64,000 nucleotides of DNA from an uncultured Prevotellaceae bacterium (GTDB lineage: Bacteria; Bacteroidota; Bacteroidia; Bacteroidales; Bacteroidaceae). Shown here in pieces: positions 17,113 to 51,895 of the stretch. Numbering within the stretch: the first letter of the stretch is position 1; each line of letters begins with the position of its first letter. The DNA is taken from the NCBI GenBank assembly GCA_900318685.1, contig ONLL01000004.1, forward strand, positions 207,651-271,650, in the 5' to 3' direction. The translations under genes were made by a program, and so were the position numbers. Under the pieces are notes generated by a model, which was not told the DNA's origin, searched no databases, and saw only the letters and a program-made list of their open reading frames with translations.

Positions 17113-17156
17113 TGCGCTCATTTGGTCCGAAGCCCAAATGAGTGCATTGTTTTTTG
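17113..17156 (+). terminator. Rho-independent terminator after regulator copy 1
   Basis: A 13-bp stem with one mismatch, TGCGCTCATTTGG (17113-17125) against CCAAATGAGTGCA (17134-17146), is followed by TTGTTTTTTG. It lies 24 bp after the stop codon and separates this gene from the next transcription unit. Confidence 0.82.
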
Positions 17157-17185
17157 TGCCTTATGCTCCTTTTTTTGTAACTTTG
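17153..17185 (+). promoter_or_regulatory. Promoter of the 2598-aa surface protein gene
   Basis: TTTG at 17153-17156, a 21-bp spacer and TAACTTTG at 17178-17185; the ATG is 41 bp downstream. The -33 box overlaps the U-run of the preceding terminator. The phased repeats found before the two 3.2-kilo-residue protein genes are absent here. Confidence 0.7.
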
Positions 17186-17226
17186 TACCCCAAAGACATA
17201 TCGAAAACAATAAAAGCAACAGAAAT

Positions 17227-25867: not shown

Positions 25868-27748
25868 ATGAGTCCAAAAACCGTTCGACCAATGAAACAG
25901 CGGAAGCTCACATTTTTATGCAGCTTCATGGCGATGCTGCTGACCTGCTGCCAGCAGTCCGCAGACGACAGCAGCCGTCCTGATGGCGCCGACACCGTCT
26001 ACACCGAGCCAAAGGCCATGAGCATTCATCGCAATAATCCGGAACGGGCTTTGGTGATGATTGATTCGGCTGTCATAGTGGGCAACATCACCCCGATGCG
26101 TGGCGAGTACCTGAAGGCTATCACTCAATATGGCGGATTAGACAATTATCCCTTGGCACGACAGACATGCCTCCAACTGCTGGACGACATCGACCAGAAA
26201 GCTAACAGCGAAACGCTGAGTCGAAAAAAGACAGAAGTCGACTCCGTCACCTTGTTACGCGTCTACCAGCTTCTGACAACCATTGAACACTCCTCAGGCA
26301 ACTATCCCGCAGCCATACGCTATGCCACAGAGGCATCGCGACTTGCACATAGCAGTGGAGATTTCAGCGACATCGCTTCTTCCGAAAGTTCCATAGCTAA
26401 GGCTATGGCTCATACCGGCAGGACAGACGAAGGCATCGACCGTCTGGATGCCATCCTTGAAGAGCTGCAAGAGGAAGACTCATTCCAAGGAGTCGTTGTC
26501 TACACGAACACTGCGAAGCACCTACTTCACATCCTGGTAGAGAATGATCGGCTGACCAAGATGATACCCGTGTGTGAAGCTATGCTCAAGCGCGTCAGAG
26601 AGCTGCGCGACCATCCCGACCGTTTCAGCGGCATCGCCGAGGGTTTCGACACCTCGGAATTCACTGATATGGCCGAAGGTCAGGCACTTGTCTTCCTTGC
26701 TGCTGCCTACGCACGGCTAGCCAATTCTGCCGGCGACGGTATGGGACCACAGTATTTGGCAAAAGCCCGGGCTACTGAAGCCAACTTGCAGCGCCTACCT
26801 TGGAGTAAAACCCTCGACTGCGAACGCATGATGAGCGGTGTATACCACTTTATGGGAGAGTTCGAACGGTTTGATAAAGCTATGGACCTCATTGCTGCCA
26901 AGATGGGAGATGATACTATCAACGTCAACAATTTCATTCGTCTCACCTCATGTTGCGTGGCAGCAAAGATGCGCGGTCGCCTCAGCGAAGCCATCGAATA
27001 CCTGGAGCGAGCCAGTATCGTGCGCGACAGCCTGGATGCTCGCAACCAGCGTGAGCAGCTTAATGAGCTGGCCACCGTCTATCACCTGCAGGAAGAGCAG
27101 CTCGCACGCAAGGAAGCTGAGGCTGACGCCCGTTTCCTCCGCCTGCTGACTATAGCCATCATCGCAGGACTGCTGGCAGCCATCGCCTTCTCCGTGTATA
27201 TCTTCTACAAGCGGCGTGAGACCAACAAGAAGAACCATGTGCTGGCACGCGAGATAGCCGAAGCCATCAAGTATAAAGAGATGTGGGAGAACGCAAATGC
27301 CAACAGAGCCACTCTGTCACCCCCCGATGGGGATACTCCTGGCACTGGTCAGGTTCTCTCGCAAGCAGCAGAAGTAGCTCCCGAGAATGAAGAAGATTCC
27401 GACTCCGTCCTCTACCAGAAGCTCCGTGAAGTCATCCTGCGTGAGCAGCTCTACCTTGACCCGATGCTCGGCCGTCAGGCACTCGTAGAGCGTTTCAACC
27501 TGCCCAAGGAGCGCATCGGTGCCGCCTTCAGCAAAGGCAGCCCGTTCAAGTCGCTCATCGACTTCCTCACCGACTGCCGCCTGCCCTACGCAGCCAAGCT
27601 CCTCACCGACCAGCCCGATCTACCCATTGCCGACGTAGCTCGTCAGAGCGGATTCTCCAGTGCCGACACCTTCGGCCGCAACTTCAAGCAGAAGTACGCC
27701 CTCACCCCCACTCAGTTCCGGGAGCAAGTTGACATCAAAACCACATAA
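25868..27748 (+). CDS. TPR-containing membrane regulator with C-terminal AraC-type HTH (copy 2)
   Basis: A 626-aa paralogue of the protein at 15379-17088. The N-terminus contains MKQRKLTFLCSFMAMLLTCC, a lipobox-like signal; the alternative start at 25892 removes eight residues and suits a signal peptide equally well. Residues ~40-410 are TPR-like (PERALVMIDSAVIVGNI, GNYPAAIRYATEASRLAH). A membrane helix at ~426-448 (LLTIAIIAGLLAAIAFSVYI) leads into a charged linker. The last ~105 residues are the HTH (GRQALVERFNLPKERIGAAF, LPIADVARQSGFSSADTFGR, YALTPTQFREQ). The linker with PPDGDTPGTGQ is longer than in copy 1. It lies immediately upstream of the operator-bearing operon and is the best candidate for its activator. 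Confidence 0.83.
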   Translation: MSPKTVRPMKQRKLTFLCSFMAMLLTCCQQSADDSSRPDGADTVYTEPKAMSIHRNNPERALVMIDSAVIVGNITPMRGEYLKAITQYGGLDNYPLARQTCLQLLDDIDQKANSETLSRKKTEVDSVTLLRVYQLLTTIEHSSGNYPAAIRYATEASRLAHSSGDFSDIASSESSIAKAMAHTGRTDEGIDRLDAILEELQEEDSFQGVVVYTNTAKHLLHILVENDRLTKMIPVCEAMLKRVRELRDHPDRFSGIAEGFDTSEFTDMAEGQALVFLAAAYARLANSAGDGMGPQYLAKARATEANLQRLPWSKTLDCERMMSGVYHFMGEFERFDKAMDLIAAKMGDDTINVNNFIRLTSCCVAAKMRGRLSEAIEYLERASIVRDSLDARNQREQLNELATVYHLQEEQLARKEAEADARFLRLLTIAIIAGLLAAIAFSVYIFYKRRETNKKNHVLAREIAEAIKYKEMWENANANRATLSPPDGDTPGTGQVLSQAAEVAPENEEDSDSVLYQKLREVILREQLYLDPMLGRQALVERFNLPKERIGAAFSKGSPFKSLIDFLTDCRLPYAAKLLTDQPDLPIADVARQSGFSSADTFGRNFKQKYALTPTQFREQVDIKTT

Positions 27749-27905
27749 CTTGACATCAAGACATCAAGACAATAAGAGTTGACAACAAGACATCAGGACA
27801 CGAAACAGACCGTCTTGATGTCTTGCTTATTTTGTTGTCTTGTTAGTCTTGATGTCCCATCGTCTTGTTGTCTTGATATCCTCCATCTTGTTTTCTTGAT
27901 GTCTC
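27749..27905. repeat. CAAGACATCAAGAC-type microrepeat, arranged as inverted repeat
   Basis: Several copies of ACATCAAGAC (27752-27799) are mirrored by GTCTTGATGTC copies at 27812-27905. The left block is imperfectly complementary to 27812-27856 and could form a long stem with a U-rich right arm, so it may end the regulator transcript. Further single copies run to 27905. Confidence 0.75.
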
Positions 27906-27921: not shown

Positions 27922-28036
27922 TCCGCGAATTTGTCTGAGACATCCGTGAATTCGTCTTTTCATCCGTGAATTCGTCTGAAAATGTCCGATTATTCGTCTA
28001 AACTATTGCGCGCATTAAAAAAAATACCTATCTTTG
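27922..28036 (+). promoter_or_regulatory. Four phased direct repeats plus promoter of giant-protein operon 1
   Basis: Four copies of TCCGYGAATTYGTCT start at 27922, 27943, 27963 and 27985 (spacing 21, 20, 22). The fourth is TCCGATTATTCGTCT. The promoter follows: TTG at 28006-28008, 20-bp spacer, TATCTTTG at 28029-28036. The last repeat ends about 6 bp before the -33 box, the usual place for an activator that touches RNA polymerase. The same module lies at 39130-39245. Confidence 0.8.
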
Positions 28037-28058: not shown

Positions 28059-28247
28059 ATGCCATCAGAGACAGCCATCCTACTCATCGGTATCATCGCA
28101 GCGCTCGTCGTCCTTGTCTGCGTGCTAATGTGGCGCAATATGCGCAACCAGCAGGAGCTGCGCGACAAGAACGATGCCATCATCCGCGAGATCCGTGAGA
28201 ATGTCGAGCTCCGCGACGAGCTTCGGCGCCGGCTGATTATAAATTGA
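28059..28247 (+). CDS. Small single-pass membrane protein with coiled coil
   Basis: 62 aa: a hydrophobic helix at about residues 6-25 (AILLIGIIAALVVLVCVLMW) followed by a charged helix with heptad pattern (NQQELRDKNDAIIREIRENV). It is the first gene after the promoter at 28029-28036 (23 bp to ATG) and is 70 bp ahead of the giant protein gene, so it is very likely expressed. It resembles the membrane helix and juxtamembrane linker of the neighbouring regulators without TPR or HTH. A role as a partner or modulator of the regulator is only a guess. Operon 2 lacks a counterpart. Confidence 0.68.
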   Translation: MPSETAILLIGIIAALVVLVCVLMWRNMRNQQELRDKNDAIIREIRENVELRDELRRRLIIN

Positions 28248-28317: not shown

Positions 28318-31300
28318 ATGGAAACTACAAGACACAACGACTCACCTCCTGCAAACGCAGGATTAGTGTGTAGGCAGCGCAGCAGATTGCTGAGGCTGCT
28401 TAGGGACAATGTTGGCGTGAGGAACAGGCTCTTGCTTCTGCTCGTCATGTTCTTCGCGGCTCTGCCATCGGTGAAGGCTGAAAGCTATATCACCGAACTG
28501 AAAATTCTATCAAGAGGCTCCGAAGGCGACATCAAGAAAGTAAAGGAATCTTATCAGAACCAAGGTTGGACAATTGTTCAACAGGATTTGAACCAAGAAG
28601 CCGGAGGTAAGTGGATATACTTGGCATACAAGACGAGTGATTCGGCCGACCCGAATACAGGTTACGTCACCGACATCATTGCCTCGACAAACAACAAGAG
28701 TTCTTTCTCCAAATGGAATAGAACGTGGTATCAAATTCCCCATGATGGAGGTAACGGCGACCTAAACGAGGGTGCTGATGGCGAATTCATATACCTTTAT
28801 TATACGCGCGAACGTACTAACCTGAGTGGCCATTACGGTACGAAACGTGTGCTCAACAAACTTGCCACTTCGGAAAACACCAACAGCAGCGACGGTAACG
28901 GCAATGAGAACTATGGTCCCGTGTACTGGTGTGAAACCTTCAGCGGGCCCTGTGACCTGAACAAAGGTGCTGGTGGCAAATTCATCTACCTCAGGTTATA
29001 CTTTAAGGAGCAGACGCTGGTTATCAAGAATCATCCTGAGTTCTATGAAGACCTTGTCTATAACGGCAAGGATCAGGGACTGCTGAAAACAACGCCCTCG
29101 AACTACGGAACGATGGAATACAGCGTCGACGGCGGCTCGTGGACCACCAGCCCCACGGCGAAAACCGTTGGCAGCCACACGGTGAAATACCGCCTCAACG
29201 GCGGCTCATATGCCAACAACAGCGCCGAGTCGAGCAAGACAGTGACCATCAGCCCGCCTACAGCGCAGCCATCGAGCCTCAACGGCAATTTCAACCAAGA
29301 GGCAAGGAGCGTGCAGCTGACGTGGACCGTGGGATCCATTGCTGGCGACTACACCAATTACAAATGGGTGGTGTATCGGGGTGAAGAGAAGCTAGGAACG
29401 GTGTCGTCGAATGCACCACGTACATTTACGGATACTGGTTTCGAAAATGAAACGGAGTATATCTACTACGTCTATTACGTTTCCAACACCTGGAACGAGG
29501 ATACTAAGAAGGATAAATGCTGTTTATCGGTGAAAGTGAATACCACGCGAGAGGTGCCTGTGAAGGACCTGACGGCTGACAGCCAGTCCGACCGCATCGT
29601 GTTCACCTGGACGTCGGACAAATATCCCAAAGGTTGGGGCAACATATTCAATATCTATGTGGACAAGGAGACAGACCCCATCGCCACCATTACGCCGGAA
29701 GGCAAAGACGGGGAGGTTTTTCAGTGGGAGCACCGATCGACCGACCAGCATGCCGACAGGCAGTCAAAGATTGACCCAAAAACGGGCGTGTACTACGTAG
29801 AGGAGCCGTTGAGCGCCTGTTTGCCGCATAGCTACCGCATCGTGGGTGTGATCGACGGCAAGGAGTTCGAAGATGCATCGGTGAGCAACAAGGCCGTGAA
29901 TAGCGGCACAAGGATCTATGAGTTCGAGACTAGCAAGGGCAGCTATCCCGGAATTGTGAAGCTGTCGTGGCATGTTGACGTGCTCAGCAACCCTGGCTCG
30001 AAGACTTACGTCATTCAGCGAAAGAGGGCTGAGAAGAATGAGGAGTGGACCACACTGCAGCGCATGACGAGCGCCGACGAATATGTGTTCTTCACCGACG
30101 AGACGCCTCTGCCTGGAGTCTTTTACGATTACCAACTGTCGCTCGTGGACAAGTGCGACAACGGTCAGGAGATCACGACGGAGTTGACGAACATCGGATT
30201 CGCACAGACCACTGGCACCATGAGCGGACGTATCACCTATGGCACATCGGGTGTGGCGGTGGCTGACGTCGACGTTGTTGCTAAGAAAACGGGCGATTCG
30301 GCAGACGACGAGTCACAGTATCATGCCATTCGCTTCACAGCCGACAACGGTACCGTGAGCTGGCTGTATCCATCGGTCAACTACGCCCGCGACAAGTTCA
30401 ACGGCGGAGACTTCTCCATGCAGTTGTGGATATTGCCCGAAGCCTTCCGCGATGTCTGGTTCGCCCGATTCCGCAAGTCATCGCCGGCATGCGGACTGAG
30501 TATGTTCAATACGGGACAGCTGGACTTCTTCGACGGAAGTGACAACTATCCCTTCAACCTCTACCTGACGAAGAATGAATACAACCATGTGACGCTGACG
30601 CGACAGGGCAACACCTTGACGTGCTATCTCGTGGTGCTCGATGGCGACGGCAACGCAAAGGTGACCAAGGACACGCAAACACTTAATGGAAACCTCGACC
30701 TCGGAGATACCGGTGAGTTTAACTTGGGATACTTCAAGGGATATGTCGATGAGTTCAGACTTTGGACGAAGTGCCTGACCGAAGATGAGATTAAGCGTAA
30801 TTACGACCGGCTGCTCGTGGGCAACGAGAAGAACCTGGAGACTTACTGGACCTTTGACGAGGGTCTGAACTCTCAGTTCTTCGACTACTCACGCGACGGT
30901 ACCGTTTATAACAACCACCACGGCAAGATAGGCAGCAACGCCAAGCCCGACACCCGCACTCCCGAGCGCCTGGCACTGAAAGCCAAGACTGACGTGGACG
31001 GCAACTACATCATCCAGGGCGTGCCCTTCTCAGGCGAAGGCACTACCTACGCCGTCATTCCGCAGCTGGGCATCCACGAGTTCAACCCCACACAGCAACT
31101 GCGCTACGTGAGCAGCAACTCGCTGGTACACAACAACACCAACTTCGAGGACATCTCGTCGTTCCCCGTCAGCGGATACGTCCATTACGCCGGCACCGAC
31201 TTCCCCGTGGAGGGCGTCACCCTCTACGTCGACGGCAGCGTGTGCTCGCGCAATGGCGAAATCATCCAGACCGACGCCAACGGTGTTTTTGAAATCAACG

Positions 31301-34300
31301 TGCCCATCGGCGACCACTTCATCACCGTAGCCAAGAGCGGACATGTGTTTGCCAAAGGCGGACGCTTCCCTGAAGACCCCAGCGGACTGAACGAAAATAA
31401 AGAGCCGTTCAATGGCAAAGTCACCAATCTGGAGTTCTCCGACGAGACACTGGTCAACTTCACCGGACGCATCGTGGGTGGCAGCATCCAGGGCGACAAG
31501 CCCGTAGGCTTCGGGCTGAGCAACAACAACATCGGCGTGACCGAGTTGGTGCTCACACCATCGGGCAACGGCAACTACCGCATGAACGTGGACGTGCAAA
31601 AGAAAGAGGGCGTGATCGACATCCAGAACAACAAGGACGACGTCCCCGTAGCATCGGCCACCGAACGCATCAACAGTAACTCGGTCCGCAAAGGAGGCAA
31701 AACAATCGCCGACTGTCAGAAGATCGTCATACAGACCGACCCCGAGACGGGCGAGTTCTCTGCCATGCTGCCACCCATCAAATACGATATCAGCAGCATG
31801 ACGGTAATGAAAAACTCCGCCATCGATTTCGGCGACCTGCAGGTAGTCGACCTCTCCAACCCGAACATCGTCTTAGCCGACACGCTCTACGACGAGAGCC
31901 GCGAGAACTACCAGCTGTACGAGTACAACACCTGCCTGAAGCAGATCTACCACAGCAAGCCCACGTTCAGCGTGCGGCAGCAGGGCCGCACCGACGGCTC
32001 GTTCGGCATCAGCAGCTATAAGTACTCCGACGAAGTCAGCGAACAGACCATCGACGACATCTACACGGCCGAGAACGGACTGGTGACCTACAACTACGGC
32101 GTCGACGGCCACAAGGCACCCCTGTTCGTGATGAAGGATAACTACACCTTCCTGCTCGAAGGCTACGAGGAGTACGTCAATGCCGACAACGGCCAGGCCG
32201 ACCACGTGCCACTGGCTGGCAGCATCGTCACCATCAGCAACGCACTCTCGTCGGCACAGAGCGTATATGTTGAGTCGGGAACAGTCAACGGCGAGAACGT
32301 CGAACCCGGACAGGTGGTCGACTTGAAGAGCAACCAGCTGCAGCTCGATGACGAGGGCAAGGCCACCTACAAGTGGAAGGCCGGACTGCCCAACATCGCA
32401 GAGCCATACACCCGCACCATCTCCATGACCTACGACATCGACGGACGTACCCACGAGTGGGTCGGCAACGGCATGGAAGGCATCGTACTGGGCGAGCTGG
32501 GAACAGGCAACAACTTCGTGACCACCGGACCGCAGAAACTGGAAATGATCCTGCGCGACCCGCCAGGCACCAACTCGTTCGCAGAATGGAAGAAGGGCAG
32601 CGCCACCACCAGTACTACGGTGCTGGGCAACACCATGGTGGAGAACTTCTCGGCAGGCGTCAAGCACAGGTTCGGATTCAAGCAGAACATCATCATCGGC
32701 ACACCTGCAGCAGGTACGCTCGAGGAAATCGAGTCGAAGGACGACCTTGAGGTAGGCGCCAAGATGGAGTCGGAACTCGAGGACAGCAAGACCTACGTGT
32801 CCACCACCACCGTCACACAGACCATCAGCACATCGGCAGCACCCGAGTACGTTGGTGCACAGGGCGACGTCTACGTGGGACGCTCCACCAACCTCGTCTT
32901 CGGCAAGGCTCGCAACGTAGGTTTCCAGCGCCAGTCGGACAACAGCATGAAGATAGGCCTGGAGGACATCACCACCACCAGCATGGACTTCGGCACCATG
33001 TTCATGTACACGCAGAACTACATTGAAAACGTTCTCATACCCAATTATGAGCTGCTGCGCAACAGCCTCATCACCACTACCGACCAGGCTACCATCGACA
33101 GCTATACCAACAACACCGACCACTACGTCTATCTCACCACACTCGGCAAGGACGACCCGCACTTCGGCGAGACCGGGACATTCAAGACCTTCGAGCCCGA
33201 CCCCATGAATGTCAGTGGAACGGCCAACGACAACGTGCTCACCTACAACACCGAAATCGAAAACTGGCACGAATTCATCGCTGGCAACGAAGAGGCCAAG
33301 GTGAACGCCTTCGATAAGAGGAAAGACTACCTCATAGGCGACAATATCTCATTTGACAGCGGAACCTCCTACAGCTACGAAGTAGAGGTGGCGGACGAAA
33401 ACACCACCACGCGCGAATGGAGCGTCAAAGCAGGACTGGTCGTCGATAACACCTTCGGATTAAACATCAAGGGCTTCGGACTCGAGGTGCATCTGCAAGA
33501 CGAGACCATGGGCGGACGACACGAGGTACACTCCGACGGCACCACCGAAACAACGACATTCAGCTACACCCTGGCAGAGGACGGCGACGACGACGCATTG
33601 TCGGTGGACGTGCTGGGATACGACGGCTTCGGACCTATTTTCCACACCCGCGGTGGACAGACCTGCTGTCCGTATGAGGGAGAGGAACGTACCAAGTACT
33701 ACGTAGACGACAAGGGAAATCATCCCGTCATCATGGAGGCTACGATGCAGATTGAAGTGCCACAGATCAACGTCGACGTGCCCATCCTAAGCGACATACC
33801 CACTGGCGGCACGGCCGACTACACGCTGCGGCTCTCCAACGCATCCGATATCGACGAGGACGTCTACTACCGGCTGCTCGTCGACGACGAGTCCAACCCC
33901 GACGGCGCCAACCTGACGATTGACGGAAAGCCCGTCACCGACAGCCGCGTCATCAAGATTCCCGCAGGACAGACGGTCACCAAGGCGCTACAGCTCAAGC
34001 AGACCAACACCAGCATCCTCGACTACGAGGACATCGCGCTCGTGCTCGCATCGCAGTGCCAATTCGACCCGACCAGCACCTGGGACGTCATCGCCGACAC
34101 CGTCAAGATCTCGGCCCACTTCGTGCCATCATCGTCGGAGGTGGATCTCGCACTATCCAACACGCTGATGAACACCGAGACGGGCTCCGACCTCACCCTG
34201 ACATTCTCCGGCTTCAACCGCAACTACCGAGGACTGAAAGCCTTCCGACTGCAGTACATGCCGCAGGGAGCTGCCGACTGGATACAGTTCCACGAATACG

Positions 34301-37300
34301 TGGTCAACACTGCTGACGTGACAACCAACAACGAGATACTGCCCGCAACAGGGGCCTCCGTCAGCTACACACTGCCCATGGCTCAGTTCAACGACGGCAG
34401 CTATCTCTTCCGAGTCGTCTCAGCCAGCACCTACGGCACCAGCGAGGTCTATTGCTACAGCGACGAGATAGCCCTGACCAAGGACATGCAGCGGCCCACG
34501 CCGCTCGGACTGCCCGAGCCTTCCGACGGCATACTCGAGGCCGGCGAGGATGTCAGCATCACCTTCAACGAAAACGTCGTGAAAGGCGCACTCACCAAGA
34601 CCGCCAACTTCAAGCTGACAGGTATACTCAACGGCTCACCAGTAGCCCACGAGACAGCACTGCGCGCTACCGGCGGCGAGAGTCCGACAGCACAGACGGA
34701 GGCTGGTGTCACCCTGTCAGGTAAGGACTTTGCCATCGATATGTGGGTCAATGTCCAGGGGGCAGGCACACTGCTCAGCCACGGAATCGGCACGTCGAAG
34801 ATGACTATCGCCACCGACGACCAGGCCCATCTCATTGTCACACTCGGCAACGACACCTACACCGCTCAAGGTGATGGGCAATCACCGGCACCGACCATAC
34901 CCACTGACAAATGGGTATTCCTCACCGTCAGCTACCAGCAGGCCGACGACGGCGGAAAGCTCTCCGCTGCCGTAGCTGCCGACAGCGAGACCATACACTT
35001 CTTCAACGACAAGCCCGTCGCTAAGTACGATGGAGACGGACCGCTTGCCGTAGGCAAGGGCCTCAACGGTGCCATCCACGAGCTCCTGCTCTGGGACGAG
35101 GCACACGACCTCACCACCGCCTTGGCCGACCGCTCCGTCACCAAGAGTCCCTCCACGCGCCACCTCATCGGATACTGGAAGATGAACGAGGGCGAAGGAA
35201 CCACCATCCGCGACTACGCACGCAACCGACACATGACCATGCCCACAGAGAACTGGTATCTCAACAACGAGAACATCGGCGTAACGCTCGACGGAGAGCA
35301 TCGCATCAGCATCGAAGCCTCCGCCCTGCAGCTCCTGCCTAACGACGACTACGCACTCGAATTCTGGATGCGCGGCGAAAAGCAGCAAGCCGAGGCACAG
35401 CTCCTGCAGATGGGCGACATCGCACTATGGGTCAATACCGACGGACAGCTGCAGCTCAACGGCAAGAACGCCTACGCGCCCGACGCTGACGCCACAGCCA
35501 TGTCCACCTCTGCCGGAAACATCCTCGACAACGCCTGGCACCACATCGCTCTCAGTGTGCTCCGCCAAGGTGCCGCCGCCGTCTATGTCGATGGCAAGCG
35601 CGTGCTCACCACCAACGCCGCTAACGTTGGAACCATCAACACCAACCAGCTCATCGTAGGCGCTAAGCGCACCTCAGTCATGTCCGACGAGATCGGCCAA
35701 TACGCCTTCGAACGGCCCTTCAAGGGCACCATCGACGAGCTGCGGCTCTGGAGTGCATCCATGAATGCCGACCTCCTCGCTAAACAGCGGAAGATGCGCC
35801 TCACGGGAACAGAGGACGGACTGATGGCCTACTTCCCCTTCGAGAAGAAAACCATTGACAGCTACAGCCAGATCGTCACCGACGGCAACGACGAAGACCT
35901 CACGGGAACTGGTATCAAGGCACAGCTCATCCCCCTTACTATCGTAGCTCCCTCGGCAGCCGGAGGAGATGTTACCCCGACCTACTCACCCGACGCTCCC
36001 GCCCTGCGCACCAAGCCTGTCGAGACCAATGTAGGATTCTCCTTCACGGCTTCTGACAACAAGATCGTCATCACCGTCGACGAGGACCCTGCCACCATCG
36101 AAGGCTGTACACTGAACTTCACAGTACGCGATGTCAGCGACCTCAACGGCAACTACTCGCTACCAACGACATGGAGTGCCTTCGTCAACTGCAAGCAGCT
36201 TGTCTGGAAGGATGACGAACTGGCCGTAGAACAGCCAGCTAACACATCCAGTACAATGAGCGCTACCATCGTCAACAAGGGCGGCAGCATGCAGATGTGG
36301 ACGCTAAGTGGCATGCCGGCATGGCTACAGGCAAGCGCCGAGAGTGGCACCACCAATCCGCTGGCCGAGACGAAGGTGACCTTCACCGTCACCGAGTCGA
36401 CACCCATCGGCAAGTATGAGGAGACCATCTATCTCACAAGCACCGACGGCATCGAGACACCGCTGACAATCCGCGTCACAGTCAAGGGCAAGGAGCCTGA
36501 CTGGGCAGTGAACGAGAACGATTTTGAAGGCTCTATGATCCTCATCGGTACCCTTGAGATTCTGGGTGTGCCCAGTGAGGACAGCGACGACATCGTGGCT
36601 GCATTCGTAGACGGCGAGTGCCGAGGCCTGGCACGTCCGGAATACAACCAGCGCTACGACCGCCACCTGCTCTCTATGGACATCTACGGCAATAACGACG
36701 AACTGGACAAGGATGTGACCTTCAAGGCATACGATGCCTCCACGGGTGTCACCTATCCCGTGATCGTCACCAGCGAGGATGTGAACTTCCAGGTCGACAG
36801 AATGTACGGCAAGCCTGCCGTTCCCGTGATACTCTCAGCTGTCGACATCCAGGAGCAGTTCACGGCGCTCGCCAAGGGATGGAACTGGCTCTCGCTGAAC
36901 GTCACCCTCGACGAGATGACCGTTCCTGTCGTGTTCAAGGACCTCTCGGCCAGCACTGCACTGGTGAAGAACAAGAAGATCTCCATGATGAACTACGACG
37001 GCACCTGGTACGGCCAGTCCATCGGACTCAACAACTCGGAGATGTACAAGGTGCAGATGAGCCAGGCCGACAACCTCCATATCATGGGCAAGAAGGTCGA
37101 TCCTCAGGCAACGCCCATCACGCTCGTCGCTGGATGGAACTGGGTGGCATACAACGGATCGCAGACCATCAGCATCACTGACGCAATGGCCGACATGGAT
37201 CCTCGCGACGGCGACGTGGTGAAGGGGCAGCGTGGTACGGCCATGTACGACGGCTACGAGTGGTTCGGCGGCCTCAAGTCGCTTGTCCCCGGCCAGGGAT

Positions 37301-37857
37301 ACATGATTCAGACCACTGACGCACGTACGTTCCGCTATCCGAAGGCAGTCTCTGCAGCGGGTGCACGAATGATGACCAGCTACGATGAGGCTCCAAGTCA
37401 CTTCACGCCTGTCGACTGCCACCTCTATCCCAGCAATATGACTGTCGTGGCACAGGTGCTCGTCAATGGAGTCCCTGCCGCCGGCATCGAGGTTGGAGTG
37501 TTCGACAAGGAGGAGTGCAGGGCTGCAGCCGTCACCGATGCAGACGGGCTTGCAGTGCTGACCATCCCCGGCGACGGTCACGCCACAATGACGTTCCGTG
37601 TCTATGACGGCAGCCTGACTGCAGCATGCAACGAGACGCTCCCCTACGAGAACGATGCCATCCAAGGCTCACGGCGCAGTCCGTTCATCGTCAGCGTCTC
37701 GCCGACCGGCATAGAGACCCTTACACAGCAAGACAGCGACAGCATGCTCTATGACCTCCAGGGACGACGCGTATACCGACAGGCGGAAGGCGTACAGCGC
37801 TCTACGCTGAAGAAGGGTGTCTATATCGAGGACGGCCAGAAGAGAGTAAAGAAGTAA
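28318..37857 (+). CDS. Giant LamG/Fn3 surface protein A with T9SS-like C-terminal domain
   Basis: 3179 aa. The start METTRHNDSPP gives a signal peptide with an unusually long charged n-region, cleaved near PSVKA. N-terminal ~200 aa: three DLN-x-x-AGG-x-[FW]IYL blocks, resembling MABP/beta-prism repeats. Then come a short sugar-binding-like repeat, Fn3 domains (~340-640), LamG domain 1 (~670-860), carboxypeptidase-regulatory-like repeats (~891-1010; GNYIIQGVPFSGEG, VEGVTLYVDG), a long conserved core (~1060-1950), beta domains, LamG domains 2 and 3 (~2136, ~2345), Ig-like modules (~2600-2800), two GWNW modules (~2854, ~2939), and a T9SS type A-like end (YDLQGRRV ... KKGVYI). Likely exported and surface-attached; ligand unknown. 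A paralogue of the 39304-48852 product. Confidence 0.85.
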   Translation: METTRHNDSPPANAGLVCRQRSRLLRLLRDNVGVRNRLLLLLVMFFAALPSVKAESYITELKILSRGSEGDIKKVKESYQNQGWTIVQQDLNQEAGGKWIYLAYKTSDSADPNTGYVTDIIASTNNKSSFSKWNRTWYQIPHDGGNGDLNEGADGEFIYLYYTRERTNLSGHYGTKRVLNKLATSENTNSSDGNGNENYGPVYWCETFSGPCDLNKGAGGKFIYLRLYFKEQTLVIKNHPEFYEDLVYNGKDQGLLKTTPSNYGTMEYSVDGGSWTTSPTAKTVGSHTVKYRLNGGSYANNSAESSKTVTISPPTAQPSSLNGNFNQEARSVQLTWTVGSIAGDYTNYKWVVYRGEEKLGTVSSNAPRTFTDTGFENETEYIYYVYYVSNTWNEDTKKDKCCLSVKVNTTREVPVKDLTADSQSDRIVFTWTSDKYPKGWGNIFNIYVDKETDPIATITPEGKDGEVFQWEHRSTDQHADRQSKIDPKTGVYYVEEPLSACLPHSYRIVGVIDGKEFEDASVSNKAVNSGTRIYEFETSKGSYPGIVKLSWHVDVLSNPGSKTYVIQRKRAEKNEEWTTLQRMTSADEYVFFTDETPLPGVFYDYQLSLVDKCDNGQEITTELTNIGFAQTTGTMSGRITYGTSGVAVADVDVVAKKTGDSADDESQYHAIRFTADNGTVSWLYPSVNYARDKFNGGDFSMQLWILPEAFRDVWFARFRKSSPACGLSMFNTGQLDFFDGSDNYPFNLYLTKNEYNHVTLTRQGNTLTCYLVVLDGDGNAKVTKDTQTLNGNLDLGDTGEFNLGYFKGYVDEFRLWTKCLTEDEIKRNYDRLLVGNEKNLETYWTFDEGLNSQFFDYSRDGTVYNNHHGKIGSNAKPDTRTPERLALKAKTDVDGNYIIQGVPFSGEGTTYAVIPQLGIHEFNPTQQLRYVSSNSLVHNNTNFEDISSFPVSGYVHYAGTDFPVEGVTLYVDGSVCSRNGEIIQTDANGVFEINVPIGDHFITVAKSGHVFAKGGRFPEDPSGLNENKEPFNGKVTNLEFSDETLVNFTGRIVGGSIQGDKPVGFGLSNNNIGVTELVLTPSGNGNYRMNVDVQKKEGVIDIQNNKDDVPVASATERINSNSVRKGGKTIADCQKIVIQTDPETGEFSAMLPPIKYDISSMTVMKNSAIDFGDLQVVDLSNPNIVLADTLYDESRENYQLYEYNTCLKQIYHSKPTFSVRQQGRTDGSFGISSYKYSDEVSEQTIDDIYTAENGLVTYNYGVDGHKAPLFVMKDNYTFLLEGYEEYVNADNGQADHVPLAGSIVTISNALSSAQSVYVESGTVNGENVEPGQVVDLKSNQLQLDDEGKATYKWKAGLPNIAEPYTRTISMTYDIDGRTHEWVGNGMEGIVLGELGTGNNFVTTGPQKLEMILRDPPGTNSFAEWKKGSATTSTTVLGNTMVENFSAGVKHRFGFKQNIIIGTPAAGTLEEIESKDDLEVGAKMESELEDSKTYVSTTTVTQTISTSAAPEYVGAQGDVYVGRSTNLVFGKARNVGFQRQSDNSMKIGLEDITTTSMDFGTMFMYTQNYIENVLIPNYELLRNSLITTTDQATIDSYTNNTDHYVYLTTLGKDDPHFGETGTFKTFEPDPMNVSGTANDNVLTYNTEIENWHEFIAGNEEAKVNAFDKRKDYLIGDNISFDSGTSYSYEVEVADENTTTREWSVKAGLVVDNTFGLNIKGFGLEVHLQDETMGGRHEVHSDGTTETTTFSYTLAEDGDDDALSVDVLGYDGFGPIFHTRGGQTCCPYEGEERTKYYVDDKGNHPVIMEATMQIEVPQINVDVPILSDIPTGGTADYTLRLSNASDIDEDVYYRLLVDDESNPDGANLTIDGKPVTDSRVIKIPAGQTVTKALQLKQTNTSILDYEDIALVLASQCQFDPTSTWDVIADTVKISAHFVPSSSEVDLALSNTLMNTETGSDLTLTFSGFNRNYRGLKAFRLQYMPQGAADWIQFHEYVVNTADVTTNNEILPATGASVSYTLPMAQFNDGSYLFRVVSASTYGTSEVYCYSDEIALTKDMQRPTPLGLPEPSDGILEAGEDVSITFNENVVKGALTKTANFKLTGILNGSPVAHETALRATGGESPTAQTEAGVTLSGKDFAIDMWVNVQGAGTLLSHGIGTSKMTIATDDQAHLIVTLGNDTYTAQGDGQSPAPTIPTDKWVFLTVSYQQADDGGKLSAAVAADSETIHFFNDKPVAKYDGDGPLAVGKGLNGAIHELLLWDEAHDLTTALADRSVTKSPSTRHLIGYWKMNEGEGTTIRDYARNRHMTMPTENWYLNNENIGVTLDGEHRISIEASALQLLPNDDYALEFWMRGEKQQAEAQLLQMGDIALWVNTDGQLQLNGKNAYAPDADATAMSTSAGNILDNAWHHIALSVLRQGAAAVYVDGKRVLTTNAANVGTINTNQLIVGAKRTSVMSDEIGQYAFERPFKGTIDELRLWSASMNADLLAKQRKMRLTGTEDGLMAYFPFEKKTIDSYSQIVTDGNDEDLTGTGIKAQLIPLTIVAPSAAGGDVTPTYSPDAPALRTKPVETNVGFSFTASDNKIVITVDEDPATIEGCTLNFTVRDVSDLNGNYSLPTTWSAFVNCKQLVWKDDELAVEQPANTSSTMSATIVNKGGSMQMWTLSGMPAWLQASAESGTTNPLAETKVTFTVTESTPIGKYEETIYLTSTDGIETPLTIRVTVKGKEPDWAVNENDFEGSMILIGTLEILGVPSEDSDDIVAAFVDGECRGLARPEYNQRYDRHLLSMDIYGNNDELDKDVTFKAYDASTGVTYPVIVTSEDVNFQVDRMYGKPAVPVILSAVDIQEQFTALAKGWNWLSLNVTLDEMTVPVVFKDLSASTALVKNKKISMMNYDGTWYGQSIGLNNSEMYKVQMSQADNLHIMGKKVDPQATPITLVAGWNWVAYNGSQTISITDAMADMDPRDGDVVKGQRGTAMYDGYEWFGGLKSLVPGQGYMIQTTDARTFRYPKAVSAAGARMMTSYDEAPSHFTPVDCHLYPSNMTVVAQVLVNGVPAAGIEVGVFDKEECRAAAVTDADGLAVLTIPGDGHATMTFRVYDGSLTAACNETLPYENDAIQGSRRSPFIVSVSPTGIETLTQQDSDSMLYDLQGRRVYRQAEGVQRSTLKKGVYIEDGQKRVKK

Positions 37858-39129: not shown

Positions 39130-39245
39130 TCCGCGAATTCGTCTGAAATCATCCGTGAATTCGTCTTTTCATCCGCGAATTCGTCTGAAAACGTCCGATA
39201 ATTCGTCTGAACTATTGCGCGCTTAAGGAAAATATCCTATCTTTG
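39130..39245 (+). promoter_or_regulatory. Four phased direct repeats plus promoter of giant-protein operon 2
   Basis: Copies of TCCGYGAATTCGTCT start at 39130, 39152, 39172 and 39194 (spacing 22, 20, 22); the fourth is TCCGATAATTCGTCT. The promoter is TTG at 39215-39217, 20-bp spacer, TATCTTTG at 39238-39245. Repeats 2-4, the stretch to the -33 box and the -7 box are nearly the same as at 27922-28036, whereas flanking sequence is not. Confidence 0.8.
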
Positions 39246-39303: not shown

Positions 39304-42300
39304 ATGGAAAGAAGACTACTAAAATCGAAGCACTGGTGGCGAGTGCTGCTGTTGCTTCTTGCATGCCTCCTCGGAGGTAGCAGTCCTACATGGGCAGGCG
39401 AACGCTTCGATGCCGGAGGTACGTGGATCCAGCACCAGCCCACGGTCAACGAGCCATGGATCGTGTTGCGCGTGATGTTCTACGATCCCAATGGCCATGA
39501 CGGCTTCTTCATGCACACGCAAACCGAGCCGGGCCATGACGGACCCGCCGTCTACATTGACGACGAATACGTCTGTTCGCCTGACTGGCAGTTGGCATGG
39601 CCCGGAAGTGGATCAGGGTCAAGCGATAAAGTAGAAAAACAAAGAGGCGTAGAAGAATGGTGGTATAATGAAAAAGACAATGCAACCAAGTCATACACCA
39701 AGACAAATACCACAACCGGCCAGAAGTATCTGGTGAAGTTTTGGAATCCAGCTAAGAGTAATGAAGGCCAGTACACCTGCTACATGCACGTCTACCTGAA
39801 GAAATGGCATGTAGGCGAGACGCACAAGGTGAAGATCAAGGGCACCTGGCGCATCAACGACACCAAAACCGACTTGGAGGAGGTGACGCTGACAACTAAT
39901 AAGTTCGCCACCCCCTACACGGGCAGTCCGTCGGCAGTGATGGGTGACTACGGTCACATGCTGGTCAGCGGCACGCTGAACAGCAGCCACGGACCTACCA
40001 CCGTCGGTACGACCAACGACGCCACCTGGGGCAGCCTGCAGCCTGTGGCCCCGGAAGCGCTCAACACCGACAGGCTTCAGTACGGCAAGGGCACGCAGAA
40101 TTTCTCCAACCTGTCGCTGGCCTTTTCACGCACCGACTTCTTTGACAGCCAGTCAAAACCCGTTGAGTATGTCATCGTAGAGCCCATCAGCAACCCGAAC
40201 CTGCCTCAGGAGGACCAGTTCGACGTTCTGATACACCAGTGGTTCAACGTTAAGGTGCCTGGCTTCGTGAAGGCCAATAACCTGAATTACACCACCGACC
40301 TGTGGAACAAGGCCATCACCCTCACTTGGACTGTCGACGAGTCGGGCAACGGCAGCAAGAACGGCACGTGGAGCATCTATCGGGGAACCACGCTGGTATC
40401 AAGCGGACTTGACTGTGAGACAACGAGCTATACCGACAGCAATGTGCCCGCCTACGACACCCAGTACACCTACAAGGTGGTGTTCGTGCCCAGCCAGTCG
40501 CCTTCAGGAACCGTCCGCAGCGATCTGACGACGGAGAAAGCGGCAAAGCTCGAACGGCCCGCCACGTTCTTCTCGAACCTGTCGGCTACCAAAAACTACG
40601 ACAACAAGATCATCTTCTCGTGGGCACACCCGAGCATCGCCAACGCCAGCGGCTCCACCCCCGTCAACCTGACGGTGGAGCGCTCGACCGACTTGCAGAA
40701 CTGGACTACCCTGAAGACCATCGCCATCGACAACAGCGAGACCAACAGCGGCTCGTATGAGGACACCAACGCCAACGGCCTGCAGTCATTCGTGACCTAC
40801 TACTACCGCCTGCGCATCAACGTCATGGGCAAGACTTACGAGTCGGGGTATGTCACAGGCCAGCTCAAAGGCATGTCGACGGTGACGGAGTTCACTGCCA
40901 CTAGGGGCACCTACAGCTCGATGGTGAAACTGAAGTGGCTGGTGAATCAGGTGGGCACCACGACAACCTACTTCACGCTCTACCGCCGTCCCCTGGGCAG
41001 TGCCGACGAGCGCGACTGGGCTGAAATCCACTCCACCTCAGGCACAGCTGCCTCCTACAGCTATGACGACGTTACTGCCCTGCCGGGCAGCTTCAACGAA
41101 TATAAGGTGGCCGTGTGGATGATGAACGGCTCCACTCGAATGCCCGGCTCAGAGACTACTGCCGACGGCTTCAGCGTGTCAACCGGCGTTATCAGCGGAC
41201 GCATCACCTATGGCACCGGAACGGCTGTCAGCAATGCCAAGGTGACACTAAAGCAGCAGACGGGCGACAGCACAACGGTCAGAGGCATGCACTCGGTGAA
41301 GCTCAGCGGCACAGGCCAGGGCTTTAAGTACGATTGCGACACCACGACGCTGCAGCGTCTCTTCGGCAGCGACTTTTCCATCCAGATGTACATCAACCCC
41401 GACAACACCATCATGAACGGCAACAAACGCTACCAGTTGTTAGATGTGTATACCAGCTTCACGCTCTTCCTGCGCTATGATGCAACGAACGTTGTCTATC
41501 ATCCGGGCATTTACCTCCAGGGGAAAGACTATGTCACGTCGCTGAACGTACACCCCAACGAATGGGTCAACATCGCCTGCGTGCACAAACAGGGCACAGG
41601 AACGACATTCTACCTGATGAAGGGCGACAGCGTGCAGTCGGAAGTGATTACCAATAACGGCACGGCCGTCACCGTCGACCCTGTCATTGCCAAGTCAGCC
41701 AACTGCATCTCATTCGCCAACAATGCCTCCTACAATGGAACGGAATTCTATAACGGCTATCTCGACGAGTTCCGCTTCTTCACCCGTGCCCTGAGCGAGC
41801 AGGACATCCTGCGCAACTACAACCACCCACTGGCAGGCAACGAGAGTGGACTGGCCATCTACTACCCCTTCGACGAGGGCATCCCCTCTCAGACCATGGC
41901 CTACGACTTCTCGAAGACCAACGGCGTGGCCAACGGCCGTCACGCCACGGCCAAGGTTGCTGCTGCCTCGACCGACTATCTGCCCTCAGAGGACCAGCTG
42001 AGCCTGATGACTTACACCGACACAGACGGTAACTACACCGTGCGCGGTGTGCCCTTCTCGGGCGAAGGCACAAGCTACAGCATCATCCCGCAGCTGGGCA
42101 TCCACGAATTCTCGCCCTCTGCACAGTCGCGATTCGTCAGTTCTTCGTCGCTCAACCACTCGGGCGTCGACTTCGAGGATGTGTCGTCGTTCCCCGTCAG
42201 CGGCAAGATCTTCTATGCCAACACCAACCATCCCGTGGAGGGCGTGACGTTCTACGTCGACGGTACCATCTGCTCGAAGGACGGCGAGGTGATTCAGACG

Positions 42301-45300
42301 GCTAGTGACGGTTCCTACACCATCAGCGTGCCCATCGGCGAGCACTTCATCCGCATCGAGAAGAACGGCCACGTGTTTCCCGACGGAGGCCGTTATCCTG
42401 CCGACCCGAACAACACGGGAGAGCGTATCCCCTTCGACAATGAGATCAAGAATCTGGACTTCCAGGACGAGACGCTGGTCAACTTCACCGGCCGCATCGT
42501 GGGCGGCAGCATCCAGGGCGACAAGCCCGTAGGCTTCGGTCTGAGCACCAACAACATCGGCGTGGCCGAGCTCATCCTGGTACCGACGAGCGATCAGTAC
42601 ATAATGAACCTCAAGAAGCCTTCGGGCGAGAGCAGCTACGACTTCAAGCCCAGCAACGATTCATTGCCTGTCATCTCGGCTACTGACCGAATCAACAGCA
42701 AGGCTTGGCGCGGAACAGGCGATGCCGACTGCAACAAGTTCTTTATCCTCACCGACCCTGCCACCGGTGAGTTCTCAGCCATGCTTCCCCCGCTGGAATA
42801 CAGCATCAAGAGCATGCAAGTAAAGGCTTCAACACTCAGCGTAGGGCAGACCCCCATCACCATCGACATGAGCAACCCACTGATAGAGCTCTCCGATACG
42901 TTACATGGCACCGACGGCGACCAGCTCTACAGCTACAACACCATACTACGGCAGACCTACCATGCCGATGCCACGTTCACTGTCAGCCAGAAGGGCCGCG
43001 AAGACGGCTCGTTCGGCATCAGCAGCTATGACTACTCCGACGAGCTGGGCAAGCTGACAGTAAGCGACATCTACAGCATCGGTGCCGACGGCAAGCCTGT
43101 CTACAAGTACGGCGGTCCGCTCTTCGTCAAGGAGGATGACTACACCTTCCTCATCGAAGGTTATGAGGACTACACCAATGCCGACAACGGCGAGCACGAC
43201 CATGTGCCTCTGGACGGAAACATCGTCACCATCAACAATGAACTCTCGGCCGACCGTGGCGTCTACGTGGAGGGCGGCTCCGTCGACGGACAGACGGTGG
43301 AGGCCGGACAGGTGGCCGACCTGAAGGAGAACCAGCTGCGTCTGGACAGCCTCGGACAGGCTACCTATACTTGGAAGGCCGGACTGCCCAACATCGCCGG
43401 GGACTTCACACGCACCATCTCCATCACCTACGACATTGAAGGACGCCCCACCCAGTGGAGCGGCAGTGGCATGGCGGGCATCATCCTGGGCGACCTGCCC
43501 ACGGGCAACAACTTCGTCACCGCAGGCCCCGACAAGTTGCTTATGATCCTGCGCGACCCGCCAGGCACCAACTCCTTCGCCGAGTGGACCAGCGGCAGCA
43601 GCACGACGACATCAACCGTGCGCGGCAACACCTTTACCGAGAACTTCGGTGTGAAGTTCCAGCACCGCTTCGGACTCACCACTAATGCCATCGTCGGCAC
43701 GCCCGGCGTGGGCACAGTGAATGTGGTGGAGGCCAAGGACGACCTCACCCTCGGAACGAAGATGGAGTCATCGGGCGAGAACTCGGTGACGAAGACCACC
43801 ACCACCACGGTGACCCGCACCATCGGCACCTCGGCTGCCCCTGAGTATGTGGGTGCACAGGGCGACGTATTCGTGGGAACAAGCACGAACCTCATCTTCG
43901 GCAAGGCCCGCAACGTCGGCTTCCAGCGCATCTCGTCGACTAGCGAGGTAAAGCTGGGGCTGGAGGACATTGTCTCCACGGGCGTGGACTTCAACACCAT
44001 GTTCAGCTACACACAGAACTACATTGAAAACGTGCTCATGCCCAACTTCGAGCTCATCCGCAAGGGACTGCTTACTACCGTACAGTCGCAGGCCGAGATC
44101 GACAGTTACGTCAACAACAGCAAGAACACGGTATACCTCACCCTGCTCTCGGCTGACGATGCGGACTACGGAGCCAACGGCACCTACACCGTATTCCCGC
44201 CGAAGCTCAACAAGCCTGCCTCCACCTATGCTGACCCCCTGAAGGCGTGGGAGTTCCTGCTGGAGAACGGCGCACTCGTAGCCGACAGCGTGAAGTGGGT
44301 GAACAGCCAGATTGAGAACTGGACGAAATACCTTTCTCAGAACGAGGAGGCAAAGGTGAAGGCCTTCAAAGACCGCAAGAAATACCTCGTCGGCGACAAC
44401 ATCTCCTTCGACTCGGGTACGACCATCAGCTCGTCGACCGAGACGGAGAGCAGCACCACCAACACCTGGGACTGGAACGTCTCGGCAGGACTCGTCGTGG
44501 AGAACAGCTTCGGATTTGAAATCAACAAGTTCGGTCTAGACTGCACCATCGAGGACGAGACCACGGGCGGACGCCATGAGACCGATGAGGACAGCGAATC
44601 GACCGTGACCTCGTTCAGCTACACGCTGGCTGAGGACGGCGACGACGACGCACTCTCGGTCGACGTGCTGCAATACGATGCCTACGGACCCATCTTCCAC
44701 ACCCGTGGTGGCCAGACCTGCTGCCCCTACGAGGGAAAGACGGTGACAAAGTACTTCCAACCAGGCACCACCATCATGGAGGCTACGATGCAGATTGAAG
44801 TGCCGCAGATTACGGTCGACGTGCCCATCTTGACCGATGTCCCCACTGGCGGCACGGCGGACTACACACTGCGTCTCTCGAACGCATCCGAGATTGACGA
44901 GGACGTCTACTACCGTCTGCTCGTCGACGACGAGTCGAATCCCAACGGTGCCAATATCATGATTGACGGCAAGCCTGTCACCGACAGCCGCGTCATCAAG
45001 ATTCCCGCCGGACAGACTGTCACCAAGGCCATGCAACTGAAGCAGACTAACACCAGCATCCTCGACTATGAGGACATCGCCGTGGTGCTCGCTTCGCAGT
45101 GCCAGTACGACCCAACAAGCACATGGGACGTCATCACCGACACCGTACGCATCTCAGCCCACTTCGTGCCATCGTCGTCGGCTGTCGACCTGGCCCTCTC
45201 CAACACGCAGATGAACACCCAGACGGGCACCAACCTCGTACTCACCTTCTCGGGCTTCGACCGCAACTACCGCGGGCTGAAGGCCTTCCGACTACAATAC

Positions 45301-48300
45301 AAGCCGCAGGGCAGCACCGACTGGACTCAGCTGCACGAATACGTCACCGACTCCACGGCCGTCACCCCGAACAACGAACTGCTGCCCAAGACTGGCTCAG
45401 CGGTCAGCTACACGAAGTCCATGGCCTCGTTCGCCGACGGCAACTACCTGTTCCGCTGCGTATCGGCAAGCACCTATGGTAACGAAGAGGTCTACCGTTA
45501 TAGCGACGAGATTGCCTTCGTGAAGGACATGCAGCGCCCCACCCCGCTCGGACTGCCTGAGCCCGCCGACGGCATCCTGCAGGCAGGCGATGAGATCAGC
45601 GTCACCTTCAACGAACCCATCGTCAAGGGCGAGTTCACCAAGGAACGCAACTTCAGCGTGACGGGTGTGCTCAACGGCGCTGAGGTGGCGCACGAGACGG
45701 CGCTCTCCATGCAGAACACGGAGACGACGGCTGCCACCGAAGCCAGCATCACCCTGGCAGGCAAGGACTTCTCGGCCGACATGTGGGTGAACATCCAGGG
45801 GCCAGGAACCATCCTCAGCCACGGAGCAGGCACCTCGAAAATGACGGTAGGCACTGATGTCAGCGGCAAGCTGACGGTCAGTATCGGCAACAACACCTAT
45901 ACCTCGACGAAAGTTATGCCGAAAAACAAGTGGGCATTCCTTACCCTCTCCTACAAGAACACAGAGGAGGGTGGCGAGCTGAATGCCACCGCTGCCTCTG
46001 GCAGTGAGACCACTTCACTCTTCAGCGGTCTGCCCGTCGTGAAGTACGAGGGCAACGGGCCGCTCGCCGTGGGCCGCAACCTGAGCGGTGCCATCCATGA
46101 GCTGCTGCTTTGGGACGAGGCTCACGACATGAGCACGGCCCTGATGAACCGTTCAAGGACAAAGAACCCGTCGACACGCCACCTCATCGGCTACTGGAAG
46201 ATGGACGAGGGCGAGGGCACCACTATCCGTGACTACGCTCGCAACCGCCACATGACCATGCCAGCCGAGACGTGGTATCTGAACAATGAGAACATGGCCG
46301 TCAGCCTGGATGGCAGCCACTACATGGTCATCAACACATCGCAGCTGCAAACCTTCGAGGGTGACGACTACGCGCTGGAATTCTGGATGAGAGGCGAAAA
46401 GCAGAATGCTGAGGCTCAGCTCGCCCAGGTAGGCGAGATAGCCCTATGGATAAACGCTCAGGGTGTGCTCCAGCTGACAGGCAAGGGAGCCTACCTGCCC
46501 GCTGATCAGTCATCCACCCTGGCCACCAGCAGCGGCGACATCCTCGACAATGCTTGGCACCACATTGCCCTGAATATCCTCCGTCAGGGAGCTGCTGCCG
46601 TCTTTGTAGACGGTAAGCGAGTGCTTACGACGAATGCGGCCAATGTGGGAAGCATTGCCTCTGATAAGCTGCTCGTAGGCGTCAAGCGCACCACCTTCTC
46701 AGCAGAGACAGGCACCTACGACTACGACCGTGTATTTAAGGGCGAGGTGGACGAGGTCCGCATTTGGGGGGCATCGATGAGTGCCGACCTGCTCAGCAAA
46801 CAGCGCCGCATGCGCCTCACGGGAAGCGAGGACGGCCTCGTGGCCTACTACCCCTTTGAAATCAAGACCCTTGACAAAAACAACCAAGTACACACCATAG
46901 GCCATCCCGACGACCTCACGGGCAGCGGTCTCCAAGCACAACTCTCAACGCTCAACACTCAACTCTCAACGCTCAGCTACACAGACGAGGCTCCCGCCCT
47001 CCGCACGAAGCCCACCGAGACGAACGTCAGTTTCTCGTATGTCGCCTCCGACACGAAGGTGGTCATCACGATCGATGAGGAGCCTGCGGTCATCGAAGGT
47101 TGCACGCTCAACTTCAGCGTACACGCCGTACGCGACGAGAATGGCAACTACTCCGAGCCTGCCGTCTGGAGCGCCTTCATCAACTGCAACACGCTTCTCT
47201 GGAAGGACGACGCGCTGGCCGCAGATTTGCAGGCAGGCACCGCAGCCACAGTCACCACTAGCGTGGTGAACAAGGGCGGCACGATGCAGATGTGGACGCT
47301 GAGCGGCATGCCGGCATGGATGCAGGCCAGCACCGAGAGCGGCACCACCAATCCGCTGGCCGAGACGAAGGTAACCTTCACCGTTACTGAGTCGACGCCC
47401 GTCGGCAAGTATGAGGAGACAATCTACCTGACCAGCACCGATGGCATCGACGTGCCGCTGACCATCTCTGTTACCGTACGCGGTGAGGAACCCAAATGGG
47501 CAGTAAATGCAAGCGACTTCGAAAGCTCGATGAATCTGATTGGTACATTGGATATTCTCGGCATCCCGAGTGAGGACAGCGACGACATCGTGGCTGCATT
47601 CGTAGACGGCGAGTGTCGCGGCATAGCACACCCGAAGTATGATGCCGACTACGACTCTCACATCGTAATCATGACCATCTACGGTAATGACGATGAAAGC
47701 AGTAAAGAAGTGACCTTCAAGGCCTACGATGCCTCGACGGGTGAGACCTACGCCATAGTGGAAACCGCACAGGATATCAGTTACATACCACATAGTCTGG
47801 CTGGTGCCTTTGAGAATCCGATACTACTATCGGCTATCGACATGCAGGAACAGATGCTGAAGCTGGGCAAGGGTTGGTCGTGGATTTCGCTCTACGTGGA
47901 ACCCGATGACATGTCGGTACCTATCATCTTCGGACCAGTGAAGGACGTGGTCGGCATGGTGAAGAGTCAGAGAAACTTCATGGCTTACTCAGACAACGCA
48001 TGGACAGGAAGAAACTTCTCGCTGAACAACCAGTCGATGTATCAGGTGAAGATGAGCGAATCGCGGACCATCAATCTTACAGGTAAGAAGGTCAACCCGC
48101 AGGAGAAGCCCATCACACTGGCTGCAGGATGGAACTGGGTGGCCTATAATGGCTCGCAGACAATGAGCATCACCGACGCTCTTGCCGACATGGAACCACA
48201 GAATGGCGACTACGTGAAAAGCCAAAACAGCTTTGCCACGTATAATAACGGCAAATGGAAGGGTCTGCTCGAAGCGCTTGTCCCCGGTCAAGGTTACATG

Positions 48301-51860: not shown

Positions 51861-51868
51861 TACCTTTG
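51861..51868 (+). promoter_or_regulatory. -7 element of the GH98 gene promoter (TACCTTTG)
   Basis: TACCTTTG followed by CACCC, 27 bp before the ATG. No TTTG lies at the 20-bp position. Confidence 0.6.
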
Positions 51869-51895
51869 CACCCGAAAATCATAATTCTACTCAAA

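Follow-up and report, generated by a model that had tools for sequence, protein, structure and literature searches.

In the window, that is, the whole stretch of 64,000 nucleotides analysed here, four direct copies of TCCGNNAATTCGTCT (array 1, 27922..27999, + strand) stand before a putative promoter and a giant gene. This array is very probably the tandem operator of the adjacent 626-aa regulator, a predicted one-polypeptide membrane activator, in a class II-like placement. The array was found in this position, it recurred beside relatives of the regulator, including those in rumen bacteria, its word was associated with the helix-turn-helix (HTH) domain of the neighbouring regulator, and a second HTH class was accompanied by an operator of its own.

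Arrays, regulator and giant genes in the window

The copies of array 1 are located at 27922-27936, 27943-27957, 27963-27977 and 27985-27999, and scored 12, 13, 13 and 12 out of 13 defined positions. Their start-to-start steps are 21, 20 and 22 bp, as in the direct repeats about 21 bp apart of hybrid two-component systems (HTCSs). Six nucleotides after the last copy begins putative promoter 1 (28006..28036, + strand), composed of TTG (28006-28008), N20 and TATCTTTG (28029-28036). Four direct repeats at 20-22 bp spacing before a -33 box had been described in the sequence-only reading, and they are real. Array 2 (39130..39208, + strand) contains four copies at 39130-39144, 39152-39166, 39172-39186 and 39194-39208, with steps of 22, 20 and 22 bp, all of them scoring 13/13. 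Putative promoter 2 (39215..39245, + strand; TTG at 39215-39217, N20, TATCTTTG at 39238-39245) has the same layout as that of array 1, the flanks of the two arrays are dissimilar, and the distance between them is about 11 kb. By sequence, both promoters are of the Bacteroidetes type, with a TAnnTTTG -7 box and an upstream -33 element. The region between the regulator gene and array 1 (27731-27905) is dense in direct and inverted GACATCAAGAC/GTCTTGATGTC repeats, which the locus L053 has and L051 does not.

The 3.96-Mb genome of origin was scanned for TCCGNNAATTCGTCT with at most 2 mismatches, and the pattern read backwards was used as control. There were 69 matches and 124 control matches; the word is rarer than its control, and therefore it is no general genomic repeat and not generally enriched. 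All six exact matches were within arrays 1 and 2, and so were 8 of the 11 with at most 1 mismatch; the remaining three, each with 1 mismatch, fell within ORFs 100 aa long or more, of which one, of 115 aa, is perhaps no gene. Words strewn away from promoters had been named as the adverse outcome, and the confinement of exact words to both arrays favours the earlier reading.

The regulator P0001 (25868..27748, + strand, 626 aa) is composed of a lipoprotein-like start, a TPR-like sensor, one membrane helix and an AraC-type HTH encoded at about 27410-27733; the start and the helix were judged by eye, and the TPR matches in the sensor region were below cut-off. Directly upstream of the array a regulator with such an HTH had been described, which was borne out by the Pfam scores of P0001 (HTH_18 50.2 bits, cut-off 33.6; HTH_AraC 27 bits, cut-off 26.6). 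A paralogous regulator, P0003, scored 56.2 bits with HTH_18 and 28.9 bits with HTH_AraC, and both proteins thus carry the C-terminal double HTH of the AraC/XylS DNA-binding domain above the curated cut-offs. Up to E 0.1, neither P0001 nor P0003 showed a histidine kinase or receiver domain, which belong to the domain content of an HTCS. Among the solved structures related in sequence to the P0001 HTH are those of SoxS, RamA and a hybrid two-component protein. The AraC HTH aside, the regulators reached the cut-off of no curated family. With its predicted membrane helix, P0001 is no soluble AraC protein.

The presumed targets are two genes on the + strand encoding giant proteins with laminin-G-like domains, as revealed by domain search: giant gene 1 (28318..37857, ATG at 28318, 3179 aa) and giant gene 2 (39304..48852, 3182 aa). 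The array had been placed before a giant-protein operon; the giant gene is indeed downstream, but the first ORF past promoter 1 is a 62-aa membrane ORF. Dockerin type I domains were found at 48868-49494 and at the C-terminus of the ORF 17122-25020, and a 1067-aa protein with a glycoside hydrolase family 98 domain is encoded at 51866-55069, close to the giant-gene cluster.

Repeats beside related regulators

Among 398 genomes of the same genus, a strict two-word pattern was found in four; in the three besides the genome of origin it follows a P0001-like regulator and precedes a giant gene (a 1146-aa ORF in L052). A loose pattern (two words 20-22 bp apart, 6 nt, TTGC) gave 18 matches in 10 of the 398 genomes, and the reversed pattern gave 0. 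Thirteen of the 18 directly follow a family regulator, or as much of its C-terminal part as is visible, four have no adjacent regulator (window array 2, L149, L143 and the second array of L148), and one (G353) is T-rich and was regarded as chance. Window array 2 and the arrays of L149 and L143 precede another giant ORF; the second array of L148 precedes a 328-aa ORF. At E up to 1e-50, 32/398 genomes have a protein like P0001 (three candidates scored per genome), and an array was found in all eight genomes with non-type-B relatives of at least 50% identity (G000, G041, G072, G085, G173, G245, G286 and G297), that of G286 being a variant missed by the loose pattern. Of the 21 arrays built on this kind of word, all have a proximal step of 22 bp. 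The second step measures 20 or 21 bp in 15 arrays and is too weak to call in 6; the outermost one measures 19-22 bp in 16, with 5 weak. A score counted as not weak is reached by 5% of shuffled sequence. Word, step and promoter distance persist across loci whose flanks differ.

The family set comprised 66 distinct full-length relatives from named MAGs and genome searches, distinct meaning different in the last 250 residues; 57 of them remain at <92% identity with one fragment omitted. By HTH class, 60 are type A and six are type B (P0003, L083, L118, L135, L151 and L152). A direct repeat ahead of the downstream promoter was found for 54 of the 60 type A relatives. In 48 it reaches at least 13/17 before a TAnnTTTG box, with a best step of 22 bp (41 loci), 20 (4), 21 (2) or 24 (1), the last being the weak best pair of L120 at 13/17; in another five a 22-bp repeat precedes a variant -7 box, and L059 stands at 12/17. 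No direct repeat of this kind was found downstream of L071, L080 and L163, one copy is retained by L063, and the L051 fragment and L144 could not be judged. In L163, five copies of a 25-bp unit (ATGAGCCATCTGCCTGCAAGGT...) occupy the expected place of the 22-bp operator. As a control, these loci contain 109 further intergenic TAnnTTTG sites, of which 7 reached 13/17, and three of the seven are known arrays; with these set aside, 4/106 remain.

The words vary among regulators (TCCGTGAATTCGTCT, CTCGTAAATCTGTCT, TTGACCATTTGTCT, TTTACAATTTGTG and others), and ATTYGT is common to them. The 3' end of ATTYGT is located 30-31 nt ahead of the -7 box in 44/46, a distance partly set by the search, because the motif was sought only in a 16-nt range before the box; in this count L130 is mis-anchored and the -7 box of L162 ambiguous.

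The type B regulators differ in both HTH and repeat. P0003 (15379..17088, + strand, 569 aa), assigned by sequence comparison, is 57% identical to P0001 in the sensor and 24% in the HTH. Downstream of it we read a type B operator candidate, ATTTGG-N8-CCAAAT (17120..17139, + strand), 38 nt before TAACTTTG (17178-17185). ATTTGG-N7-8-CCAAAT was present downstream of 6/6 type B genes and 0/60 type A, in a group that was spotted first by the absence of direct repeats, its common HTH being found afterwards. In the HTH tree type B forms one clade with support 100, and in the sensor tree well-supported branches force every one of the 5 changes required for the type B proteins; both are quick trees, with few HTH columns and one long branch. 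The 3' end of the inverted repeat lies 38-39 nt from the -7 box in 7/7 loci (the six type B and the held-out L196). A T-run often follows the inverted repeat. A mere terminator is nevertheless disfavoured by the fixed distance in 7/7 loci and by L196, which has no stem beyond the core; an operator is the favoured reading, and the operator and terminator roles may coexist.

By profile search, relatives were found in 20/201 genomes of the family, in 11 of 30 genera, and 18 new loci were used as the held-out set (L188 was already known and excluded). Six of the seven type A-like loci (HTH similarity to a type A member of 60% or more) have the repeat, with steps of 21-23 bp, and L195 reaches only 11/17; the one type B-like locus (L196, 67%) has the inverted repeat. 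Among ten relatives with HTHs of <45% identity, two (L202 and L203) carry another kind of 21-bp repeat and eight have no direct repeat; none of the ten has the inverted repeat, and two have <150 nt downstream. The operator rule holds close to the family and fades with distance. The spacing is not absolute either, with steps of 21 and 23 bp in held-out loci and 20-22 bp inside the arrays.

Association of word and HTH, and exchange between loci

Promoter-anchored words of 45 non-redundant regulators were compared with protein distances by Mantel comparison. Word distance correlated with HTH distance (r=0.595, N=45); the correlation remained with sensor distance removed (partial r=0.528, p=0.0001), and that between word and sensor with HTH distance removed was 0.076 (p=0.10). 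Twenty-four pairs with HTHs at least 80% alike and sensors at most 55% alike have on average 14.3/18 word positions in common, and eight pairs with sensors at least 70% and HTHs at most 60% alike have 9.4/18, against a background of 9.9; these pairs have members in common and are not independent.

Part of the word-HTH correlation comes from linkage, since the HTH-coding DNA adjoins the operator and a recombination tract can take in both. The identical word of array 2, 11 kb off, would not be reducible to linkage, though local duplication could also explain it. Among type A regulators, the variable 5' half-word is associated with the second HTH (partial r=0.289, p=0.0002), its association with the first being unclear (0.078, p=0.07), and the 3' half tracks both HTHs (0.274 and 0.221). 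As far as these sequences go, the association between half-word and HTH is not reducible to linkage. The prediction from this association is that ATTYGT, beside the promoter, is read by the conserved first HTH and the outer half by the variable second HTH. That the HTH of the upstream regulator reads the repeats, as had been proposed from the window, now appears well founded on the comparison across genomes, which includes the recurrence in 54/60, the word-HTH association and the second class.

Mosaic loci were also found at the DNA level. L124 and L135 are 87-99% identical at about nt 330-1140 and then 27-68% across HTH and operator. Between L045 and L079 the sensor is at most 72% identical, the HTH 86-94%, the operator window 72% and the sequence just beyond 88-90%; P0001 and L062 form a similar, less sharp mosaic. 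Different sensors seem to have exchanged HTH, operator and promoter as a single block.

The first ORF past promoter 1 (28059..28247, + strand, 62 aa) encodes a predicted membrane helix and KNDAIIREI and, by profile comparison, resembles the membrane-linker segment of the regulator; it has no Pfam or NCBIfam match. In 22 of 65 loci, a count that includes near-duplicates, the first post-promoter membrane ORF carries K/R-N/D-xx-I-I/V-x-E shortly past the helix. A profile of 24 such ORFs (the 22 plus L133 and L166) matched the membrane-linker segment of the regulators with 96.6% probability. With helix and linker columns both shuffled the probability fell to 0.1-3.9%, and with the linker alone shuffled and the helix kept it was 38-88% (25 shuffles each), which indicates that the helix accounts for much of the match. 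We might guess that the microprotein is a feedback partner of the regulator.

Separate membrane proteins with their own AraC-type HTH are the first downstream ORF in L120, L124, L129, L131, L134, L162 and L164. They are 194-265 aa long and were found in a sister clade. As silent spare HTH cassettes they are unsupported, being separate membrane-HTH proteins with an HTH whose best match is another regulator, at 41-45%. Downstream of the regulator of L135, at 3410-3757, there is a 115-aa ORF with 64% identity to that regulator's own HTH.

Tentatively, the regulators may be modular, with helix, HTH, operator, promoter and a microprotein copying the membrane-linker segment of the regulator inherited as one exchangeable cassette that recombines under different TPR-like sensors. 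Such a cassette would insulate coexisting paralogous switches, and the microprotein would be its built-in feedback partner.

Proposed mechanism and comparison with known systems

In the proposed mechanism, a signal outside the cell would be sensed by the TPR-like sensor and would alter the HTH inside the cell. One HTH domain would occupy one 15-bp word, the promoter-proximal ATTYGT half lying beside the -33 region and the proximal step being fixed at 22 bp. Several monomers would then stand on one DNA face, the last adjoining RNA polymerase, like AraC-type class II activation, and P0001 would serve both giant-gene promoters (arrays at 27922 and 39130), switching both on. The SoxS, RamA and hybrid two-component relatives of the HTH fit with such use. 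We infer that P0001 binds the copies, that binding is cooperative and that the signal is external; activation rather than repression is deduced from the array position only.

The adjacent HTH might also bind the arrays and repress the giant genes until the signal releases it, which is compatible with everything in the sequence, and the type B operators are palindromic, like many repressor sites. However, the last copy stops short of the -33 box, so that the copies leave the promoter uncovered, which is the usual place of an activator; AraC-type HTHs are mostly activators, and repression is considered unlikely. Still less probable is binding by another protein, such as a separate AraC-type regulator or an operon product. 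Some sister loci do encode a second membrane-HTH protein as the first ORF past the array, and the genome has further AraC-type HTHs, but word similarity tracks the HTH of the adjacent regulator, HTH class and operator class switch together, and the window operon has no ORF for a second HTH ahead of the giant gene, counted from the promoter.

We give hardly any credence to a functionless repeat kept by duplication or gene conversion. The stretch just upstream of array 1 is full of other short repeats and the loci recombine, yet word, step and promoter distance are kept where the flanks differ, and array 2 stands 11 kb off with unrelated flanks. An invertible promoter was also considered and is unsupported: among the 25 longest of 29 pairs, the inverted repeats near the array are an upstream hairpin-like set or short imperfect pairs. 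An RNA element is unlikely because the array sits upstream of the -33 box.

Activation through the tandem array by the adjacent membrane regulator, the preferred reading, would provide a readable operator code for a membrane-regulator family of gut and rumen Bacteroidales. The 54 regulator-word pairs could be used to predict the promoter controlled by each protein and the HTH reading each word half. The natural domain swaps, with like sensors and different HTH and operator, could be used for asking how similar switches avoid cross-talk. Two giant, probably surface-exposed proteins would be tied to one sensor.

Some known families resemble the regulators weakly. The FimS sensor kinase of Porphyromonas matched region 369-455 of P0001 at 19.9 bits (cut-off 600), and differs in being, by name, a histidine kinase. 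The C-terminal part of P0003 reached 28.3 bits (cut-off 200) with TIGR04094, the regulator next to YSIRK surface antigens, which is likewise a regulator beside a large surface-type protein and is a Gram-positive family. SoxS and RamA, AraC/XylS class II activators, are small soluble proteins. The P0001 HTH is related in sequence to their solved chains and its candidate operator also abuts the promoter, but this HTH is predicted to be membrane-tethered and its sites are tandem. We found no paper on this regulator family in the open literature, subscription papers being outside the scope.

SusR-like regulators are described in PMC3878776 as membrane one-component proteins with a periplasmic sensor, a cytoplasmic HTH and direct-repeat motifs, with 67 or 77 bp between SusR sites and an HTH unlike other known HTHs. 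P0001 has a similar membrane one-component layout, direct repeats and weak N-terminal similarity, but its HTH is AraC-type, its sites are 20-22 bp apart instead of the 67/77 bp given there, and it reached 21.4 bits with the SusR model, below the cut-off of 480. The HTCSs of Bacteroides likewise combine an AraC-type HTH with a membrane sensor in a single polypeptide; the motifs predicted for them are direct repeats with an average of 21 bp, and the similarity of these motifs was compared with that of the DNA-binding domains (PMC3878776). P0001 differs from them in having no detected kinase or receiver, a TPR-like sensor, up to four copies of the site and a sister class with inverted-repeat operators. 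As direct repeats averaging 21 bp had already been predicted for HTCSs, the principle is known; what is new is this family of regulators with its operator words, the presence of two types of operator and the apparent exchange of cassettes.
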